64,000 nt of DNA, taken from positions 4,588,001-4,652,000 of the forward strand of contig NZ_CP014007.2 of the NCBI RefSeq assembly GCF_001658025.2. The letters run 5' to 3'. Positions 3,410 to 64,000 of this stretch are shown in pieces. Below the pieces are notes generated by a model. That model made no database searches. It was not told where the DNA came from and saw only the letters and a program-made list of their open reading frames with translations. The position numbers were made by a program, and so were the translations under genes. Numbering within the stretch: the first letter of the stretch is position 1; each line of letters starts with the position of its first letter. This stretch comes from Kosakonia oryzae (GTDB lineage: Bacteria; Pseudomonadota; Gammaproteobacteria; Enterobacterales; Enterobacteriaceae).

Positions 3410-5077
3410 GTGGCTCAATTCGTATATACCATGCATCGTGTCGGCAAAGTTGTCCCGCCGAAACGTCATATTCTGAAAAATATCTCGCTAAGCTTCTTCC
3501 CGGGCGCAAAAATCGGCGTGCTGGGTCTTAACGGTGCCGGTAAGTCTACCCTGCTGCGCATCATGGCCGGCATCGATACAGACATCGAAGGTGAAGCCCG
3601 CCCGCAGCCCGGCATCAAAATTGGTTATCTGCCGCAGGAACCACAACTGAACCCGGAACATACTGTCCGTGAATCGGTTGAAGAAGCCGTTTCCGAAGTG
3701 GTTAACGCGCTGAAAGGTCTGGATGAAGTGTACGCGAAGTACGCGGAACCCGATGCAGACTTCGACAAGCTGGCCGCACAGCAAGGTAAGTTTGAAGAGA
3801 TTATCCAGGCGCACGACGGTCACAACCTGAACGTGCAACTGGAGCGCGCGGCGGATGCCCTGCGTCTGCCGGACTGGGATGCCAAAGTCGCTAATCTTTC
3901 CGGTGGTGAACGCCGCCGCGTCGCGCTGTGCCGCCTGCTGCTCGAAAAGCCGGACATGCTGCTGCTCGACGAACCGACTAACCACCTTGATGCTGAATCC
4001 GTGGCGTGGCTGGAACGCTTCCTGCACGACTTCGAAGGCACCGTGGTGGCGATCACCCACGACCGTTACTTCCTTGATAACGTCGCCGGCTGGATCCTCG
4101 AACTCGACCGCGGCGAAGGCATTCCATGGGAAGGTAACTACTCCTCCTGGCTGGAACAAAAAGATCAGCGTCTGGCGCAGGAAGCCTCTCAGGAAGCGGC
4201 TCGCCGGAAATCCATTGAGAAAGAGCTGGAGTGGGTTCGTCAGGGAGCGAAAGGCCGTCAGTCGAAGGGCAAAGCCCGTCTGGCGCGCTTTGAAGAACTT
4301 AACAACACGGAATACCAGAAACGTAACGAAACCAACGAACTGTTTATTCCGCCTGGACCACGTCTGGGTGACAAAGTGGTTGAGGTCAGCAATCTCAGCA
4401 AATCCTACGGCGATCGCCAGTTGATTGACAATTTGTCCTTCTCCGTACCGAAAGGTGCCATTGTCGGCATTATCGGTCCAAACGGCGCGGGTAAATCGAC
4501 GCTGTTCCGTATGATGTCCGGTCAGGAGCAGCCGGATAGCGGCTCCATCACCTTGGGTGATACCGTGAAACTGGCCTCGGTTGACCAGTTCCGTGACGCG
4601 ATGGATAACAGCAAAACCGTGTGGGAAGAAGTTTCCGGCGGGCTGGATATCATGCGTATCGGCAATACCGAAATGCCGAGCCGTGCTTATGTGGGTCGCT
4701 TTAACTTTAAAGGCACCGATCAGGGCAAACGCGTTGGCGAACTCTCCGGTGGTGAGCGCGGTCGTCTGCATCTGGCGAAGCTGCTGCAGGTAGGCGGCAA
4801 CGTATTGCTGCTCGATGAACCGACCAACGACCTGGATATCGAAACGCTGCGCGCGCTGGAAAACGCCCTGCTCGAATTCCCGGGCTGTGCGATGGTTATC
4901 TCGCACGACCGCTGGTTCCTTGACCGTATCGCCACCCACATTCTGGATTACCAGGATGAAGGTAAAGTCGAGTTCTTCGAAGGTAACTTCACCGAATACG
5001 AAGAGTATAAAAAACGTACGCTTGGCGCTGACGCGCTGGAGCCAAAACGTATTAAATACAAACGTATCGCTAAATAA
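3410..5077 (+). CDS. ettA: EttA, energy-dependent translational throttle A (ABC-F ATPase)
   Basis: 555 residues when started at the GTG at 3410, exactly the E. coli EttA (YjjK) length; the frame stays open upstream to 3128, but that part has no family match. The protein binds the ribosomal E site and gates entry into elongation according to ATP/ADP level. Seen: two ABC domains with Walker A GLNGAGKST (39-47) and GPNGAGKST, signatures LSGGERRR and LSGGERGR, and Walker B LLLDEPTNHLD and LLLDEPTNDLD. The charged PtIM linker lies between them. No membrane segments, as expected for ABC-F proteins. Confidence 0.96.
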   Translation: MAQFVYTMHRVGKVVPPKRHILKNISLSFFPGAKIGVLGLNGAGKSTLLRIMAGIDTDIEGEARPQPGIKIGYLPQEPQLNPEHTVRESVEEAVSEVVNALKGLDEVYAKYAEPDADFDKLAAQQGKFEEIIQAHDGHNLNVQLERAADALRLPDWDAKVANLSGGERRRVALCRLLLEKPDMLLLDEPTNHLDAESVAWLERFLHDFEGTVVAITHDRYFLDNVAGWILELDRGEGIPWEGNYSSWLEQKDQRLAQEASQEAARRKSIEKELEWVRQGAKGRQSKGKARLARFEELNNTEYQKRNETNELFIPPGPRLGDKVVEVSNLSKSYGDRQLIDNLSFSVPKGAIVGIIGPNGAGKSTLFRMMSGQEQPDSGSITLGDTVKLASVDQFRDAMDNSKTVWEEVSGGLDIMRIGNTEMPSRAYVGRFNFKGTDQGKRVGELSGGERGRLHLAKLLQVGGNVLLLDEPTNDLDIETLRALENALLEFPGCAMVISHDRWFLDRIATHILDYQDEGKVEFFEGNFTEYEEYKKRTLGADALEPKRIKYKRIAK

Positions 5078-5086
5078 GCGCCGTCT

Positions 5087-5111
5087 AAGCGGATGGATTT
5101 CCCATCCGCTT
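5087..5111 (+). terminator. Terminator after ettA
   Basis: Perfect 10-bp stem AAGCGGATGG (5087-5096) / CCATCCGCTT (5102-5111) with a 5-nt loop, 10 bp after the ettA stop. The T-run is short and impure (TTATCCCC). Confidence 0.75.
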
Positions 5112-5420
5112 TATCCCCTCCCCCGCCACGCTTCCCCCCGAAATGCGCAGAGAATTCATCTGCAACACTGAGCAAATAAAGTGTTTTCGTTTTTGCATAA
5201 TATCCACATTAAACCCAGGTATTCGCGCACGCATTGCTCACGGCGAATCAAAACAAAAACACAGCAAAAAAACATCGATGCAGAATAAAAACACACAAAA
5301 ATATAAATAAATGGTTTTATATTTTGATGATTTATGAAAAAACCACGCTATTGCTTAACGAAAAAGCCACCGGATAATATTGATCTCCCCTAAAGCCGAA
5401 TCAATATATGGTTATATTCA
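5112..5420. other. AT-rich spacer upstream of the LuxR-type gene
   Basis: 309 bp without a convincing gene. Base composition turns strongly AT-rich from about 5160, unlike ettA and nadR on either side. It presumably contains the promoter of the 5421 gene, but no single -35/-10 pair stands out. Such composition is typical of H-NS-bound acquired DNA (inference). Confidence 0.5.
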
Positions 5421-5930
5421 ATGCAGATCATTACGGAAAATGCATATTTAAAATGCGGTCTGCAAACACTTATTCAGCAGCACGCGATAAAACTGAATGC
5501 GGATGATGTGATTATAGATTTTGATAATCATCTGCTTGTTATCACCACCTTGACGACGCTGAAAGAAATTACGGAAAGTGATAATTCATTTGAAAAATTT
5601 CTGCTGTATCCCTTTTTCAAAATAAGTAAAAGCCTGCCAATCGACGTTTTCCAACGGACCCTACAACAAAAGGCCTGGCGAAATAAAAAGAGGCTCGAGG
5701 GGAAATTAGCACTGACCCGAAAAGAAAGAGTGCTACTTAAACATATTATTAATAGAGAAACGCAGACCGATATATTCAGCAACGGCGAAATGGATGTAAA
5801 AACGTTCAGCACCCACAAATATAATATGCTGAAGAAAGTGAACCAGCCTTCTGTCGCGACGCTGAATCAGGTTTACTATCACTGGGAAAGTTTGTGTAAC
5901 CAGCCGACCTGTTATCCGCTTGCCGGGTAA
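5421..5930 (+). CDS. Orphan LuxR/FixJ-type transcriptional regulator
   Basis: 169 residues, not assigned to a named gene. The C-terminal part (about residues 98-160) has the LuxR-class helix-turn-helix pattern: LTRKERVLL, then KTFSTHKYNMLKKV, comparable to the KT(I/V)S.HK.N.M.KL recognition helix of YjjQ, BglJ and FimZ-like proteins. The N-terminal 95 residues look like a shortened receiver-like domain (ITENAYLKCGLQTLI, then a DVIIDFDN strand), without a clear phospho-acceptor aspartate pocket. No strong Shine-Dalgarno is visible. It is inserted in the convergent ettA/nadR gap, which has no gene in E. coli K-12, and is AT-rich. The target is unknown. Confidence 0.7.
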   Translation: MQIITENAYLKCGLQTLIQQHAIKLNADDVIIDFDNHLLVITTLTTLKEITESDNSFEKFLLYPFFKISKSLPIDVFQRTLQQKAWRNKKRLEGKLALTRKERVLLKHIINRETQTDIFSNGEMDVKTFSTHKYNMLKKVNQPSVATLNQVYYHWESLCNQPTCYPLAG

Positions 5931-5946
5931 AGTGAAAATACCCGGC
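5922..5946. terminator. Shared hairpin between the LuxR-type gene and nadR
   Basis: Stem GCCGGGTA (5922-5929) / TACCCGGC (5939-5946) with a 9-nt loop. It overlaps the stop codon of the 5421 gene and faces the end of nadR. It could terminate both convergent transcripts, though neither side has a good T-run. Confidence 0.55.
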
Positions 5947-5958
5947 CAGTAGCTGCAC

Positions 5959-7185
5959 TTACGCGCCCATCAGTTTCTTCACCAATTCGACACACTGCAA
6001 AAACCGTGAATCATAGTCAGCAGATTCGACACGGACAAAATCAATATGGTTTTCCTGTAGCATAGAAACCAACAGATCCTGAAACTCTTTCCGGTCAACC
6101 GAACTGCCCAGACTTCTTAAGCCATCATTCACCCACGGCGTATTATTTTCCAGCAGGATCACTAAATCGAAGCGATATTCATCAATTAACGCCTGCACGA
6201 AGGGATGCTCACGCCCCTCATATTTTTTGCAAAACGCCTGCGTGGTGACAAAATCCGTATCGATAAACGCCACTTTATTCGCATATTTCACCGCGAAATC
6301 GATATATTGCGCATGGCCTAAAGCAATTTTATCGTAATCAGAATATTGCAGCGCAATCTCATCGCCGCCGAGATGAGAAAATACGTAGTCCCGGCCATAT
6401 TCCCACGCGCTGGTGGTGTTAAAAATATTGGCAAGTTTATTCACCAGCGTCGATTTACCGCTGGATTCACCGCCCAGAATAGCCACGGTGCGGACAAAGA
6501 AAGGTTTTACTTCCGTCGGAATATAATCCCAGTAGCGGAATGGATTTTCGCGGATCTGCGAGCCGCTGATATTCATAAACGTACGCTGCGGATCTACCAG
6601 CACGGCCTCAATGCCTAAATGTTGCAAATACTGCGGCGCATCAGACTCTTCCGAGGTGTAGATCCAGTTTGGCGTAATGCCTTTCTCTGTCATAAACGCT
6701 TTGATGCCTTTACTCCAGACATCCCAGCCGTGCGGATACGGCTCCATGCCCTCTTCATTAAAAGCATGAATACGAATATTTTTCTGATACTTAAAGGTTT
6801 GCAGCAGCCAGCGCAGCCGATCGCTGACCGTCGGTTGCTGCGACATGGCGCTGTCTTCAAACAGCTCGCGATCGCGCGTTTCGTCGTAGCCGAGGATAAT
6901 GTGCAATTCATCAACCTGGCTACAGGCGCGCTGGATTAAATAGATATGGCCGGTATGCAGCGGATAAAACTTACCGAATACCACGCCAATATTTTTCTGC
7001 CGCCGGGGAAATTCAAGGTCGAGGAAGCGGTGCAACGCCTCCAGCTTTTGCGCGCTGGGGCTTTTAATCTTGGCATTCAGCAGTTGGCTTAAATAGCCTT
7101 TGGTCATACCGCTGGCATCGGCCACTTGTTGTAAGGTACAGCCCTTCTGGCGAATCGCGGTTTTTAAATAATCAAATGACGACAT
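5959..7185 (-). CDS. nadR: NadR, NAD repressor / NMN adenylyltransferase / ribosylnicotinamide kinase
   Basis: 408 residues. One protein senses and makes NAD: it represses nadA, nadB and pncB genes, adenylylates NMN and phosphorylates nicotinamide riboside. Seen: an N-terminal helix-turn-helix (about 10-45, QQVADASGMTKGYLSQLL), a nucleotidyltransferase motif GKFYPLHTGH (71-80), and a kinase P-loop GGESSGKST at about residue 237. ATG at 7185 is used because AGGAGG lies 5 nt upstream; an in-frame upstream start at 7200 has no such support. It follows radA closely (29 bp). Confidence 0.96.
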   Translation of the reverse strand: MSSFDYLKTAIRQKGCTLQQVADASGMTKGYLSQLLNAKIKSPSAQKLEALHRFLDLEFPRRQKNIGVVFGKFYPLHTGHIYLIQRACSQVDELHIILGYDETRDRELFEDSAMSQQPTVSDRLRWLLQTFKYQKNIRIHAFNEEGMEPYPHGWDVWSKGIKAFMTEKGITPNWIYTSEESDAPQYLQHLGIEAVLVDPQRTFMNISGSQIRENPFRYWDYIPTEVKPFFVRTVAILGGESSGKSTLVNKLANIFNTTSAWEYGRDYVFSHLGGDEIALQYSDYDKIALGHAQYIDFAVKYANKVAFIDTDFVTTQAFCKKYEGREHPFVQALIDEYRFDLVILLENNTPWVNDGLRSLGSSVDRKEFQDLLVSMLQENHIDFVRVESADYDSRFLQCVELVKKLMGA

Positions 7186-26254: not shown

Positions 26255-26341
26255 GCGAAGGTGGCGGAATTGGTAGACGCGCTAGCTTCAGGTGTTAGTG
26301 TCCTTACGGACGTGGGGGTTCAAGTCCCCCCCCTCGCACCA
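26255..26341 (+). tRNA. leuQ: tRNA-Leu (CAG), first of three
   Basis: 87 nt including the encoded CCA. Acceptor stem GCGAAGG pairs with the 3' CCTCGC side, the anticodon loop is CTTCAGGTG (anticodon CAG, reads CUG), and the long class II variable arm is GTCC TTAC GGAC. It appears identical to E. coli tRNA-Leu1. The symbol assumes the K-12 order leuQ-leuP-leuV. Confidence 0.96.
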
Positions 26342-26369
26342 TAAACCACGCAGATATCGCTCGCACTGT

Positions 26370-26456
26370 GCGAAGGTGGCGGAATTGGTAGACGCGCTAG
26401 CTTCAGGTGTTAGTGTTCTTACGGACGTGGGGGTTCAAGTCCCCCCCCTCGCACCA
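26370..26456 (+). tRNA. leuP: tRNA-Leu (CAG), second of three
   Basis: 87 nt with CCA; same acceptor, anticodon and T arm as the first copy. One base differs: the variable arm is GTTC instead of GTCC, replacing a C-G pair with a U-G wobble. Spacer from the first copy is 28 bp. Confidence 0.95.
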
Positions 26457-26488
26457 ACGAGGCGATATCTAAAAAGTAAGATGACTGT

Positions 26489-26575
26489 GCGAAGGTGGCG
26501 GAATTGGTAGACGCGCTAGCTTCAGGTGTTAGTGTCCTTACGGACGTGGGGGTTCAAGTCCCCCCCCTCGCACCA
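26489..26575 (+). tRNA. leuV: tRNA-Leu (CAG), third of three
   Basis: 87 nt with CCA, identical to the first copy. Spacer from the second copy is 32 bp. The three copies share the single upstream promoter. No clear terminator hairpin follows. Confidence 0.95.
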
Positions 26576-31289: not shown

Positions 31290-31961
31290 CTACATCAACT
31301 CCGACGCTGAACGAGGAGTTGGCGGCCTCCAGGTCAGAATATCTGCAGCATCCAATAATCCGACGTCAGAGGTAACGCCCAGCTTCGTCATCGCATTGAA
31401 TTTATGCGCGCGGATGGTTTTCACATTCCGATCCAGCAGTGAGGCTATCTCGGCCAGCGAAAAACCGCGCGTCAGGTAATTCAGGATCTCCCACTCTGTA
31501 GGGCTGAGCATCCGGCACTGGCTCACGTACCAATTATTAATCATGTTCTCATTAATGCGCCGGGTTTCACCCAGTAGCATCCCCAGTTGCTCCTGTAACA
31601 CAGGCAGCGGGGAGGATTTGCTCAAAATACCATGCAGCCGCGAGGGAGAGAGATGCCCGACCAGCTGGGCTTCCCGATCGTCTCCCGCCAGAACAATATG
31701 CTGAACACCCGGGTGAGAAAGCGAAAGCCAGTGCAAACACATCAGGCACTCCCGCCGCTCTTTCCGGTGCCCAAAAAGTGAATAGATGACGGAAAAAAAA
31801 GGCGTGTGCTTCAGTGCCTGATGAAACACCGAATGCTCTTTAAAAAAATGAAACGAATACTGATTAATAGACGATTCACTAAATAAATGTCGTAATCCCT
31901 CCCGACTCATTGCGCACTTTTCAATAATGGCGACATTTCCCTTTTTGTAGCTATTTTCCAT
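31290..31961 (-). CDS. bglJ: BglJ, LuxR-type partner of RcsB
   Basis: 223 residues, similar along its length to E. coli BglJ (IEKC.MS, LSPSRLHGILSK, LSPTEWEILNYL). In E. coli a BglJ-RcsB heterodimer relieves H-NS silencing of bgl and activates leuO. Seen: an N-terminal receiver-like domain without a clear phosphorylation aspartate, and a LuxR helix-turn-helix near 150-200 (SLAEIASLLDRNVKTIRAHK). It overlaps yjjQ by 55 bp and is expressed from the same AT-rich promoter region. Confidence 0.9.
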   Translation of the reverse strand: MENSYKKGNVAIIEKCAMSREGLRHLFSESSINQYSFHFFKEHSVFHQALKHTPFFSVIYSLFGHRKERRECLMCLHWLSLSHPGVQHIVLAGDDREAQLVGHLSPSRLHGILSKSSPLPVLQEQLGMLLGETRRINENMINNWYVSQCRMLSPTEWEILNYLTRGFSLAEIASLLDRNVKTIRAHKFNAMTKLGVTSDVGLLDAADILTWRPPTPRSASELM

Positions 31962-32644
31962 TCATTCCGGTCTCCATACATCGCGCCTGAATTCAACTCA
32001 GCCATTCCCTGACTACTATTAATCCATATATATAAATCTGCATTACTCCGTAATGATAACCGCCTCATTGCACTATTTTTCTGCGCGCTCACTGTTTTAT
32101 TACTTTTTTTGAGCAGCATAGCAATTTGGTTTATTCCCCAGCCTTTTCCAAGCAGACGTAACACGTTACGTTCAGATAAGGTAAGTATTTTACTTAGGGG
32201 AGCATCAGTGGCACTTCTGCTCATTCCCTCAGGCATAAGCGCCTGGCTAATTTCTCCCTCACTCCCATATCCGTGGCGAATAGCATTAATCACCCCTTCA
32301 ACGGGTTCCTGGCTGGAGAGTAAAGTGATACGTGGGCGTAACAAAAACTCCATGGCCACAGGCAGCACCGTACGTGGAGTGAAAAAGATCCAGTGTGAGC
32401 TATCACATTGAGAAAAAAGAGAATAATAATTCTGACAGCGTCTTCTCGCGTAGAAAAGTTCGTCAGAGATATCAATAATAACCAGGCGAGCGCTCTTTAA
32501 TTGCAGCAGATCTATCTCTTCTACACAGGAATAATAATTGAGGATGTATTCAGGAAAATGACGTTCAAGTATACCGCCAATCCCGGCCCTGAGAACCGGA
32601 GTCTGGCTAATAACAATCCCATGAGTGTTGTCTGCTGATAACAT
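31907..32644 (-). CDS. yjjQ: YjjQ, LuxR-type transcriptional repressor
   Basis: 245 residues from ATG 32644 (GGAG upstream). Its C-terminal helix-turn-helix, LTLSERNVLRLLGKGWGINQIAMLLKKSNKTVSAQK, is nearly that of E. coli YjjQ, which represses flagellar and capsule-related genes when derepressed. The N-terminal half diverges more. First gene of yjjQ-bglJ. In E. coli the operon is silenced by H-NS and activated by LeuO (known); the AT-rich upstream here fits that. Confidence 0.9.
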   Translation of the reverse strand: MLSADNTHGIVISQTPVLRAGIGGILERHFPEYILNYYSCVEEIDLLQLKSARLVIIDISDELFYARRRCQNYYSLFSQCDSSHWIFFTPRTVLPVAMEFLLRPRITLLSSQEPVEGVINAIRHGYGSEGEISQALMPEGMSRSATDAPLSKILTLSERNVLRLLGKGWGINQIAMLLKKSNKTVSAQKNSAMRRLSLRSNADLYIWINSSQGMAELNSGAMYGDRNEWKIATKREMSPLLKSAQ

Positions 32645-33194
32645 AAAATCTCCACGTCCATTTGCGAGTTCTATCAATCCGCACGATGACTTTTTTCCAA
32701 TAGGAACCAATAATAACCACAGATAATGACATTATCTGGATAAGCGTCGCCGTAAGAATTGGCGAAATTTATGAGTTGGGGTCAAACATAAAGAGCCGGA
32801 ATTATAGTATTACCAACTTACATGTCAATATAACATATCGCCCGCCAGATTATCTCGCGTATTATTAAAAAATAAAAAGGAAATTTAAAATAATCAAAGA
32901 CAATATAATTAAGATAAAAATAATAATCTTAACAAATATTTAAGAAATACTTTACGAAAACCAGACCGTTAGTCGCAAATAATACTGCCCTTTTCTTTTC
33001 ACATAATTTTTTATAAAAAAACCTTAAATGAATTCTTAATGGGATAATTTAAGAAAACTTCCGGGCAAACTTCAGCGTGACTTACTGCACAAATCTTGAT
33101 CTACCTGAGCGCCATTCTGCCTGTCACCTGTGCTAAAACTATCTTTTACGCTCCATCCTTCGCGAGCGTTGAGTTAACAGATACCAGGGTAATC
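32645..33194. other. AT-rich divergent control region of yjjQ and yjjP
   Basis: 550 bp with no gene. The middle (about 32800-33030) is extremely AT-rich with A- and T-tracts and repeated AATAAT/TTAAGA words, the composition H-NS binds. The yjjP promoter should lie at the right end. No discrete operator could be assigned by eye. Confidence 0.55.
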
Positions 33195-55619: not shown

Positions 55620-56900
55620 ATGGAAAAATTAGCCGAACTTAAGCGCGCCAAGCGTCTGGCGCTCTCGCTGTTGCTGGTTGCAGCCGCAACGTTTATCACT
55701 ACGCTGTTCCTGCCGCCGGGGTTCTGGGTGAGCGGGATCAAAGCCATTGCCGAAGCGGCAATGGTTGGCGCGCTGGCGGACTGGTTTGCGGTGGTGGCGC
55801 TGTTTCATCGCGTGCCGTTACCGTTTATTTCCCGCCATACGGCGATCATCCCGCGCAATAAAGATCGGATCGGCGACAATCTTGGCCAGTTCGTGCAGGA
55901 GAAGTTTCTCGATACGCAGTCGCTGGTGGCGCTGATCCAGCGCCATCAACCGGCGCAGATGATCGGCGTCTGGTTTAGCCAGCCGGAAAACGCGCAGCGC
56001 GTCGGCCAGCATCTGTTGCAGGTCATGAGCGGTTTTCTGGAAATGGCCGATGACTCCCGCATTCAGCGCCTGTTGCGCCGCGCGGTGCATAAAGCTATCG
56101 ATAAAGTCGATCTGACCGAAACCAGCGCCATCATGCTGGAGAGCCTGACGCGCAACAATCGACACCAGAAGCTGCTCGATACCTTAATCGCCCAGCTTAT
56201 CGCTCTGCTGCAGCGGCAGAGCACCCGCACCTTTATTGCCCGCCAGGTTGTGCACTGGCTGGAGACCGATCACCCGATGAAAGCAAAGCTGCTGCCAACG
56301 GAATGGCTCGGCGAGCAGAGCGCGGATCTGGTCTCCGAGGCAGTGAATTCTCTGCTGGATGATATTAACGAAGACCGCGCGCATCAGATCCGCCAGGCCT
56401 TTGATCGCGCAACCATTAAGCTGATCGCCAATCTGAAAACCGATCCGGAAATCGCCGAGCGCGCAGACAACATCAAAGAGTATCTGAAGAATGACGAAGC
56501 CTTTAACCGCTATGTCGGCGAGATGTGGGCGGATCTGCGCGGCTGGATGAAAGCGGATATGCAGTCCACTGACTCGCGCATGAAAAAGCGTATCAGCGAT
56601 GCCGGGCTGTGGTTCGGCGAAACCCTGTTGGCGGACGCTGCGCTGCGCGCCTCGTTGAATGAGCATCTGGAGCAGGCGGCATATCGCGTCGCGCCTGATT
56701 TTGCCGCTTTTTTAACGCGCCATATCAGCGACACGGTAAAAAGCTGGGACGCGCGGGACATGTCGCGCCAGGTGGAACTGAACATTGGTAAGGACCTGCA
56801 GTTTATCCGCATCAACGGCACGCTGGTTGGCGGCTGCATTGGCCTGATCCTTTATCTGCTGTCACAGTTGCCGACGCTGCTGCACTTTTCTCCTTTTTGA
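55620..56900 (+). CDS. yjiN: YjiN, DUF445 membrane protein
   Basis: 426 residues, the E. coli length. Seen: an N-terminal membrane segment (about 14-36), a second short hydrophobic part with [18 protein letters not shown] (about 46-63), a long helical domain, and a C-terminal membrane segment ([15 protein letters not shown]). Function unknown in E. coli. It is followed 87 bp later by yjiM on the same strand. Confidence 0.92.
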
Positions 56901-61788: not shown

Positions 61789-61904
61789 AGGAGTTCCCTT
61801 AATTCACAGGCAGGGAAAGATAATAGTTATCACGGTAAGTATCAAGAAACGGGAGAGCGAACAGCATGGATTGTGAAAATCACTTCGTGCTCCGCCAGGA
61901 AAGA

Positions 61905-62645
61905 TTAGTCTTCCGTTCCGGCATCTCTCATGAGATTTGCTTCTAGTTCAGCGATAAATTGTTGTACGTATGTGCCGCCAAGGCCATTTTCACGAAATAA
62001 CTTTAACGCATCCATCGATGACTTGAGGCTGTCTTTTCTGCTTAATAGAATATCTGTTTTAGAAATGTCCTGTAGCAGATCTGTATATAATTTCTTTCCT
62101 TCGAGAGATATCCCCGTATAAATACTAAAAGCAAAACTGTTGGTAGCATAGCTCACCCAAGCTATATGCTCATCATAATCATGACGATTATAATGAAACG
62201 CACCAGCAAGTTCATTTTTGGTTGGATAATCCCCCAATTTATTTATAGTCGGCCACCAGATATTGTCATCTTTCTTTGAATTACAATCGAAACAGGATAT
62301 TGCAAGATTGTCCATAACGAGAGAGAACCGAGGAAAATGGGCACGTGGTAATATATGTTCCACCGGGCGAGCATAGGCTATATTATAAAGATAACGTTGA
62401 CAATAACAGCACCGATACTTCTGCTTACTTGCTAAGAACTCCCTAAGTTTCGATATTATTTTCGGTCCTTCGATTTTAGTCACGCCGTTCCCGGCTGGAA
62501 TATCCACTGCATATAGCTCCGGCCAAACATCGACGTTATTATTAACAGATTTAAGATACAATGCATCCATTAACTTAATTACAGCTTGTTTTTTGTTTTT
62601 CCTGTATGGCAATGTCTCGTAAAAAGACTCAAGATGGCTATCCAT
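61905..62645 (-). CDS. HNH endonuclease, PtuB-like (Septu module)
   Basis: 246 residues. Seen: a zinc-stabilised HNH core with CxxC (Cys79-Cys82, in YRCCYCQRY), the His-centred EHILPR (96-101), and a second knuckle CFDCNSKKDD (Cys118, Cys121, Asn122). This is the layout of the TIGR02646/PtuB-type nuclease encoded next to an ATPase. In Septu systems PtuA-PtuB nicks DNA of invading phage. GGAAGGGGATGA lies before the ATG, within the end of the ATPase gene, so translation is coupled. The gene is clearly AT-rich compared with all genes to its left. Confidence 0.72.
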   Translation of the reverse strand: MDSHLESFYETLPYRKNKKQAVIKLMDALYLKSVNNNVDVWPELYAVDIPAGNGVTKIEGPKIISKLREFLASKQKYRCCYCQRYLYNIAYARPVEHILPRAHFPRFSLVMDNLAISCFDCNSKKDDNIWWPTINKLGDYPTKNELAGAFHYNRHDYDEHIAWVSYATNSFAFSIYTGISLEGKKLYTDLLQDISKTDILLSRKDSLKSSMDALKLFRENGLGGTYVQQFIAELEANLMRDAGTED

Positions 62646-62648
62646 AAC

Positions 62649-64000
62649 TCATCCCCTTCCATTGCTTATGTTTTTGTAGAGTTCGTCAATAGCACGTTGT
62701 GACGTAGAAACTAACGCTATTTCATTTTCAAGATTTTGATATTTGTTTTCATTAAGCATCTTTAAGATATCATCTATTTTTACCTGTGCTTTTATTTTTT
62801 CATTTTCAATATAATACAAATCATCAGAGCTTATTACGTCCTCAGACTGGACATGGGAATTGACGATACTCATAAAATCAGAAACAATTTTTGCACATTT
62901 TTCATAAATACTGCGATTGTTTCTGGTAACGACATGGAATTTATCGAAGATAGTGGCTTCAACATTTCGCACTGGTGACTGAGGAAGTTTTGACAAGATC
63001 CCATCTTCCGCGATAAAAGAGAGATTATTATCGGGCTCAACACTATTAATCAATAAAGGTGAGTGAGTTGCGACGACAAAATGACAAGCAAACTTTTTAG
63101 CAATAAGATCAAAAATATAAGGTAGCTTCTGTTGCCAGGCAACATGCATACTAACCTCTGGTTCGTCAATAATCAGCATATCGCCCTTAGTAATAACTGA
63201 AATAACTCTTGCAAACATCAAAAGAAGCTGCTGTTCGCCAGAACTTAAGTTATCAAAAGCCAATATCTGCTCATTATCCTTCCGTTTGATAGCAATTATA
63301 TATTTTTTCTCATCAATATTTTCTGAATATGCAGAACTGAATTTAACAATATCGCTTAGATCGTAAAGATGTTTACTATTCAGAGAAAAAGAAACGGGAA
63401 CGTAATATAACTCAGCAGTGAAACCAATCTCAGATAAGATTTCTTCGAAAAAGGGCTTAACTGCGCTATTCTTATGAATGGCAATAACACGCTGCGTAAT
63501 TTCAAGGTTTCTTCTTTGAAAAGAGATCCTTCCCCCACTCTGCTTATCCCCCAGATATTTTGCATGAGGTTTGTTCCTTAGCATATAAAATCTGTCCGAA
63601 AGCCCTGAAGAAAGCAGTAAAATATTCCTCCCGCCAGCGCTTAGCAATCGGTTGGCAAGGCGAAAGAGTAAAAGACTTTTACCCACGCCATTATTACCAA
63701 TAATGTAACATCCTCGTACTTTATCTATGTCAGAAAAGCTTGAGTAAATGAGCTGATCGTCCAATGGAGAAAATAGTGCTTCACTCTCAACAGACTTCGA
63801 AACAAATTTATCAACCGAAAATGAAGATGTATCCCTTAACACTTCAACAGGAACTTCGCTAACTAATCCTGGAACATCTTTATAGCCAGAAGGGAAAAAT
63901 CGATTGATAAAATAATCCATTTTTTTATTATCATCGATATTTAACAAAAAAGGGGACTTGGTTGAATCTTCAATATTTAACAATTGTGCCAAAAAGACAG
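62649..64000 (-). CDS. AAA/ABC-type ATPase, PtuA-like (Septu module), runs to window edge
   Basis: 447 residues from the TTG at 63992, but the frame stays open to the window edge, so the true start may lie outside. Seen: Walker A GNNGVGKS (99-106), ABC-like signature LSSGEQQLL (249-257), Walker B LIIDEPEVSMH (273-283), and a switch His in VATHSP (307-312); a coiled tail follows. The order Walker A - long insert - signature - Walker B is that of SMC/OLD-like PtuA ATPases. About 98 residues precede the P-loop, without the usual N-terminal strand-loop motif. AT-rich, 3 bp from the HNH gene. Confidence 0.7.
   Translation of the reverse strand, partial: VFLAQLLNIEDSTKSPFLLNIDDNKKMDYFINRFFPSGYKDVPGLVSEVPVEVLRDTSSFSVDKFVSKSVESEALFSPLDDQLIYSSFSDIDKVRGCYIIGNNGVGKSLLLFRLANRLLSAGGRNILLLSSGLSDRFYMLRNKPHAKYLGDKQSGGRISFQRRNLEITQRVIAIHKNSAVKPFFEEILSEIGFTAELYYVPVSFSLNSKHLYDLSDIVKFSSAYSENIDEKKYIIAIKRKDNEQILAFDNLSSGEQQLLLMFARVISVITKGDMLIIDEPEVSMHVAWQQKLPYIFDLIAKKFACHFVVATHSPLLINSVEPDNNLSFIAEDGILSKLPQSPVRNVEATIFDKFHVVTRNNRSIYEKCAKIVSDFMSIVNSHVQSEDVISSDDLYYIENEKIKAQVKIDDILKMLNENKYQNLENEIALVSTSQRAIDELYKNISNGRG

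Follow-up and report, generated by a model that had tools for sequence, protein, structure and literature searches.

A Septu-like ATPase and HNH nuclease pair in Kosakonia oryzae with an apparent degenerate HsdM domain fused to the ATPase

For the Septu system EcB88, both the Walker residues and those of the HNH are reported to be required, with cleavage of tRNA-Tyr upon infection (PMC13096335). Depletion of tRNA-Tyr is also reported for PtuAB of retron-Eco7, and activity on nicked DNA for one E. coli Septu (PMC11555353). AriA of PARIS recognises Ocr and releases AriB; PrrC, in contrast to this a separate system, is triggered when T4 Stp inhibits EcoPrrI; and type I enzymes are bound by Ocr as well as by ArdA (PMC12707154). 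These accounts follow excerpts of the three papers. Here, we describe a two-gene locus at the end of a 64,000-nucleotide stretch of Kosakonia oryzae DNA (the window; positions 4588001–4652000 of a single-contig genome of 5.42 Mb). The locus pairs a PtuA-like ATPase with a PtuB-like HNH nuclease, and residues 1–425 of the ATPase seem, by sequence comparison, to be a complete, degenerate HsdM (the type I methyltransferase subunit) fused in front of the ATPase part. In our judgement, there is an even chance that the pair is a two-gene anti-phage module of the abortive-infection type, derived from Septu, with the dead HsdM as its sensor.

The anatomy of the module was established directly. Both genes lie on the minus strand, with the HNH gene (61905..62645, 246 aa) downstream of the ATPase gene and separated from it by 3 bp. 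The ATPase gene occupies 62649..64000 of the window as an open reading frame (ORF) that runs past the window end, and in the genome it spans 62649–65024 (L002:3649–6024 in our locus numbering), encoding 791 aa from the first ATG. Because Met10 is preceded by a Shine-Dalgarno-like AAGGAAGG and matches the start of the relatives in the alignment, translation probably begins there, which would give a protein of 782 aa. The PtuA-like part (residues 426–791, 62649..63749) follows the tail of the HsdM part (residues ~343–425, 63750..64000, including GYKDVPGL), while HsdM-part residues 1–342 are encoded beyond the window, up to position 65024. The initial annotation had counted 98 residues ahead of the P-loop. 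This number is wrong because the window edge cuts the gene; the actual P-loop is located at residues 443–450 of 791.

The sequence motifs, also on the minus strand, are Walker A GNNGVGKS (residues 443–450, 63675..63698), the ABC signature LSSGEQQ (residues 593–599, 63228..63248) and Walker B LIIDEPE (residues 617–623, 63156..63176) in the ATPase, and CxxC pairs together with the HNH His motif EHILPR (residues 96–101, 62343..62360) in the nuclease. In an alignment of 18 rows, G443, N445, G446, G448, and K449 of Walker A, L593–E597 of the signature and D620–E623 of Walker B were invariant; the same was true of C79, C82, H97, N113, C118, C121, and N122 of the HNH protein in an alignment of 10 rows. 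The pair proposed from the window sequence was confirmed, with its key residues invariant or nearly so. The PADLOC profiles identified the ATPase as PtuA (5.5e-31) and the HNH protein as PtuB (3e-20), a pair well beyond chance, and a chance reading was rejected. The match of the HNH protein to Pfam HNH was marginally above the family cut-off.

The HsdM identity of the N-terminal half was first suggested by eye and then checked by profile, profile-profile, and fold comparison. All three gave matches to HsdM, including its tail, the sequence is collinear with HsdM, and the fold is complete with its N-terminal helices and tail. In HsdM proteins, the SAM motif I reads DPxxGSG and the catalytic motif IV reads NPPF/Y. 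At the motif I site, the 18 fused proteins have E or D, four variable residues, T, S, N, V, or A, and then G or A. At the motif IV site, most of them read LID, VID, or something close to these, with variable residues after it. Neither motif was kept at its aligned site in any of the 18 proteins, and only one of them (L099) had motif IV anywhere, as SPPY near the N-terminus and off the aligned site. Among 15 unselected HsdM-like ORFs, some of them fragments, motif IV was present in 10 and motif I in 9. The presence of these motifs in our HsdM comparison set (n = 18) proves nothing, because that set was selected by them. Judged from the alignment, the HsdM part is probably catalytically dead. 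A GYRDVPGLC-type tail and a LEAVI-type strand recur in the N-terminal part of the fused proteins.

A profile search of genome contigs with the ATPase alignment gave at least 594 stretches and at least 411 relatives, and the eight long relatives L098–L105 were among the best 80 of these relatives, which were examined. A search of 398 Pseudomonas genomes matched at least 14, with the match extending into the N-terminal part in 12 of the 14. Three of the 14 were the genomes of L102–L104, two held short forms (L241 and L242), one (L236) was excluded, and eight were added. Scoring in the family and Pseudomonas searches covered no more than the top two or three candidates of each genome, so these counts are lower bounds. 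The resulting 18 distinct fused proteins comprise the K. oryzae protein, L098–L105, eight from Pseudomonas and a second, distant fused copy (L243) in the genome of L105 (G681). They are 730–858 aa long and all have a full-length N-terminal part, although the set was gathered partly by the presence of this part. An HNH gene directly adjoins the ATPase gene in 17 of the 18; the remaining one (L237) stops at a contig edge.

A tree was built from 40 ATPase parts, with midpoint rooting. All 18 fused proteins grouped together in it (97/95; recovered in 96% of 200 bootstrap trees). Four short ATPases without the N-terminal part (L241, L242, L009, and L106) formed a separate group (99/99), and none of them fell within the fused group. 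Both groups meet two ordinary PtuA proteins (L107 and L123) at an unresolved fork, apart from 16 other PtuA proteins. On this topology, the simplest reading is a single gain of HsdM by a Septu ATPase; alternatively, the short group may have lost it. A profile of the N-terminal part found no additional fused protein among the ORFs of all collected loci. In viral contigs, a single-protein query gave no match and alignment queries gave relatives of the ATPase part only (among the best 80 of 122 in one scan). No plasmid or phage record covered 80% of the query (P0001), residues 1–425 alone had no plasmid match, and two other members used as plasmid queries matched only a short form from Acetobacter. 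No DNA-level match was found in E. coli genomes.

The mechanism we propose is inferred from the papers on Septu EcB88, retron-Eco7, PARIS, and PrrC. PtuA-like subunits would form a ring or horseshoe that keeps the HNH nuclease inactive, and the dead methylase would act as the sensor, turned towards phage DNA or a product of the phage. Ligand binding would alter the state of the ATPase and release the nuclease on tRNA or DNA, and this release would halt the infected cell. The likeliest ligands would be the usual binders of HsdM: either DNA itself or antirestriction proteins that mimic DNA, for instance Ocr and ArdA. As the latter are among them, the HsdM domain could be an integrated decoy: a copy of a restriction methylase that phages target with antirestriction proteins, deprived of its catalysis and coupled to a suicide nuclease, for which phage counter-defence would be the trigger. 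We consider this narrower version somewhat unlikely. More generally, the comparisons suggest that a spent defence enzyme may have been repurposed to sense incoming phage or to serve as bait for it. An N6_Mtase match (E 1e-10) was missing in 9 of 17 host genomes, including that of K. oryzae, and the pair thus appears independent of a resident methylase. To our knowledge, little has been settled about what PtuA-type ATPases sense. The candidate sensor in this module has a known fold and known viral antagonists, and the trigger can therefore be guessed and tested directly.

The methylase part diverges rapidly, with mean pairwise identities of 16% in the helices, 20% in the core, and 18% in the tail (153 pairs), compared to 34% in the ATPase part (153 pairs) and 35% in the HNH proteins (nine partners, 36 pairs). 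This change fits an arms-race surface. Several points weigh against a sensor role for a dead HsdM. The rapid change also fits relaxed constraint, and the methylase part of the excluded L236 (G958) is interrupted by an in-frame stop. When residues 1–425 of the window protein were searched alone, they yielded no weighty Pfam family, and the best values (Pfam 0.13, NCBIfam 0.063, PDB sequences 0.81, PADLOC 0.0039) were judged to be chance. The motif loss rests on an alignment at 10–20% identity, and the HsdM part may still bind SAM. Finally, 8 of the 17 host genomes have a genuine N6_Mtase, where a partnership with the resident system is possible.

The best-surviving alternative, which we nevertheless regard as rather improbable, is that the dead methylase serves as a DNA-binding clamp. 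It would place the complex on phage DNA, for instance at structures that arise in replication or repair, and in this way direct the HNH nuclease to its target or switch it on. HsdM normally closes around DNA, and it requires HsdS for sequence recognition. The first of these properties and the preservation of the entire HsdM fold, N-terminal helices and tail included, agree with a clamp, as does the reported activity of an E. coli Septu on nicked DNA (excerpt of PMC11555353). The dependence on HsdS does not, since the insert that carries the pair has two genes only (hsdS was not searched for elsewhere in the genome), and an identity of 16–20% in the methylase part is low for a common DNA surface.

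It is also conceivable, though unlikely, that the pair is a plain Septu in which the N-terminal part merely holds the oligomer, plays no sensing role, or decays. The short neighbours in the tree, which have HNH partners and entirely lack this part, would be explained in this way, as would the fast N-terminal divergence and the stop in L236. However, the 18 members retain a full-length N-terminal part with recurring tail and strand motifs across deep divergence, and the four short proteins are a group of their own rather than members of the fused group. The full-length retention is weaker than it appears, because of the way the set was gathered.

The two genes are the only ones in an AT-rich insert of 3182 bp (61883..64000 in the window, ending at 65064; L002:2883–6064). 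Its GC content is 0.37, with 0.36 in the ATPase gene and 0.39 in the HNH gene, compared to 0.56 and 0.54 on the two flanks; the much higher A+T content noted in the initial annotation was thereby confirmed. The marR side of the locus was located in 13 of 15 genus genomes, that of K. oryzae included, and two gave no match. The K. oryzae sequence diverges from the loci of the 12 relatives at ~L002:2882 and rejoins them at ~L002:6065, and the insert is missing at the equivalent site in all 12. Ten of these have a plain empty site, where the marR side is followed by a few bases and then by a glyoxalase gene (Pfam Glyoxalase 3.6e-16), which we take to be FosA-like. The other two have no match to the insert either: in L284, the FosA-like gene is missing along with its neighbours, and L278 has another gene at the site. 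No terminal repeats were seen in the insert-end bases inspected. The ATPase had a match in one of the 15 genus genomes at E 1e-12. Among 295 family genomes sampled, with scoring of three candidates per genome, at least one had it at E 1e-20. A reading of the pair as core genes conserved across the species, raised in the initial annotation as the counter-case, was rejected on the single occurrence in the genus and the lack of the insert in related loci.

The gene at the site in L278 (L278:200–1234, plus strand) encodes 344 aa with a Pfam CBS domain (4.7e-6). This protein had no PADLOC match at E 0.001; RNEIAH close to its C-terminus resembles, in our view, a HEPN RNase motif. There may be a small hotspot of defence cargo between marR and the FosA-like gene. 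A HipA-like gene (HipA_C 1.2e-52) and an HTH gene adjoin the insert at L002:6506–8154 (positions 65506–67154), and this flank is also variable, since L277 and L279–L282 skip across the HipA/HTH pair. Elsewhere in the window, the GC content falls to 0.39–0.41 at 32001–33000 and 5001–6000; by eye, LuxR-like regulators lie at 31290–32710 and 5421–5930 and are not defence-like at first look. Three tRNA-Leu (CAG) genes stand in tandem at 26255–26575.

The genomic setting bears on a further alternative, in which the pair is a guard: its pseudo-HsdM would dock on the host HsdS/HsdR of a resident type I restriction system and fire upon inhibition of that enzyme, as PrrC does with EcoPrrI. In the Enterobacter soli relative L098, the module adjoins a DUF445 gene and lies near a CobW-type gene, and DUF445 is also found at 55620–56900 of the window; we take these genes to be yjiN and yjiA. 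In E. coli K-12, the restriction genes hsd, mcr, and mrr lie between yjiN and yjiA, and the window resembles this site. The PrrC precedent (excerpt of PMC12707154) and the N6_Mtase matches in eight host genomes point the same way. The reading is weakened by the nine host genomes, K. oryzae included, without such a match, and we hold it to be quite unlikely.

A larger, multi-gene system (a retron or another) whose remaining components went unseen, suggested by PtuA/PtuB being the retron I-A effectors and by the structure and weak profile matches, is very improbable and its retron form was rejected, as the insert has two genes only, RVT_1 (PF00078) had no match at E 0.001 across the genome, past position 64000 included, no Rfam retron matched up to E 0.1 in the 12 kb around the pair (Rfam may lack many retron RNAs), and no third gene recurs beside the relatives (neighbour lists by eye, flanks of ~1.5 to 6 kb, ORFs selected by length so that small genes may escape). 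An Rfam match to MIR5649, presumably a eukaryotic family, was below the gathering score and taken as chance.

Compared to known systems, the module is most similar to Septu. A PtuB-like HNH gene comes immediately after a PtuA-like ATPase gene whose product has Walker A, signature, and Walker B intact, and the profile, structure, and tree placement within PtuA all support the Septu-like assignment made at the outset. It differs in the ~400-residue degenerate HsdM in front of PtuA. The unfused ATPases among the 140 best ORFs are 334–530 aa long, and we take Septu PtuA to be an ATPase without a large N-terminal domain, which the fused protein is not. As residues 1–425 have the HsdM fold, the module is a Septu variant rather than Septu proper. 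The suspected distinct subfamily is indeed set apart, although for a different reason than the one given: a whole degenerate HsdM is fused before the ATPase. With the retron I-A systems (Ec78/Eco7 and Ec83), the module shares the ATPase and HNH effectors and structural matches (9vhe, 9l7p, 9e8z), but its genome has no reverse transcriptase match. Of the profile searches proposed earlier, those with PADLOC models matched, whereas the NCBIfam Ec78 models scored far under their cut-offs (for PtuA, 20.6 bits against a cut-off of 500, with the window part of the ATPase as query; for PtuB, 28.9 against 150).

The N-terminal half shares fold and collinear sequence with HsdM (PF02384) but has lost motifs I and IV in the alignment, is fused to an ATPase and has no hsdS or hsdR in its insert (the rest of the genome was not searched for them). 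The ATPase matches the AriA profile of PARIS more weakly (3.5e-18) than PtuA profiles; the partner is an HNH protein instead of the TOPRIM nuclease AriB, and antirestriction sensing is a proposed analogy. PrrC/EcoPrrI shares the concept of an ABC-ATPase nuclease tied to a type I restriction enzyme (excerpt of PMC12707154), although that enzyme is active and separate, whereas the methylase here would be dead, is fused and serves another nuclease family. In ptuXYZ, a PtuA-like ATPase also changed partners, there to PtuX (DUF262) and PtuZ (PIN-like/YoeB-like), and the excerpt of PMC11980606 tells of no HsdM domain or HNH. In the open-access PMC literature, to which our search was confined, we saw no description of an HsdM-PtuA fusion with an HNH partner; the HsdM mentioned in PMC11555353 is part of a PrrC construct. 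The module retains both the ATPase and the nuclease known from Septu and departs from it in domain make-up, with HsdM on PtuA. If the proposed sensor role is true, a restriction enzyme has been recycled as a non-catalytic component of another defence system.
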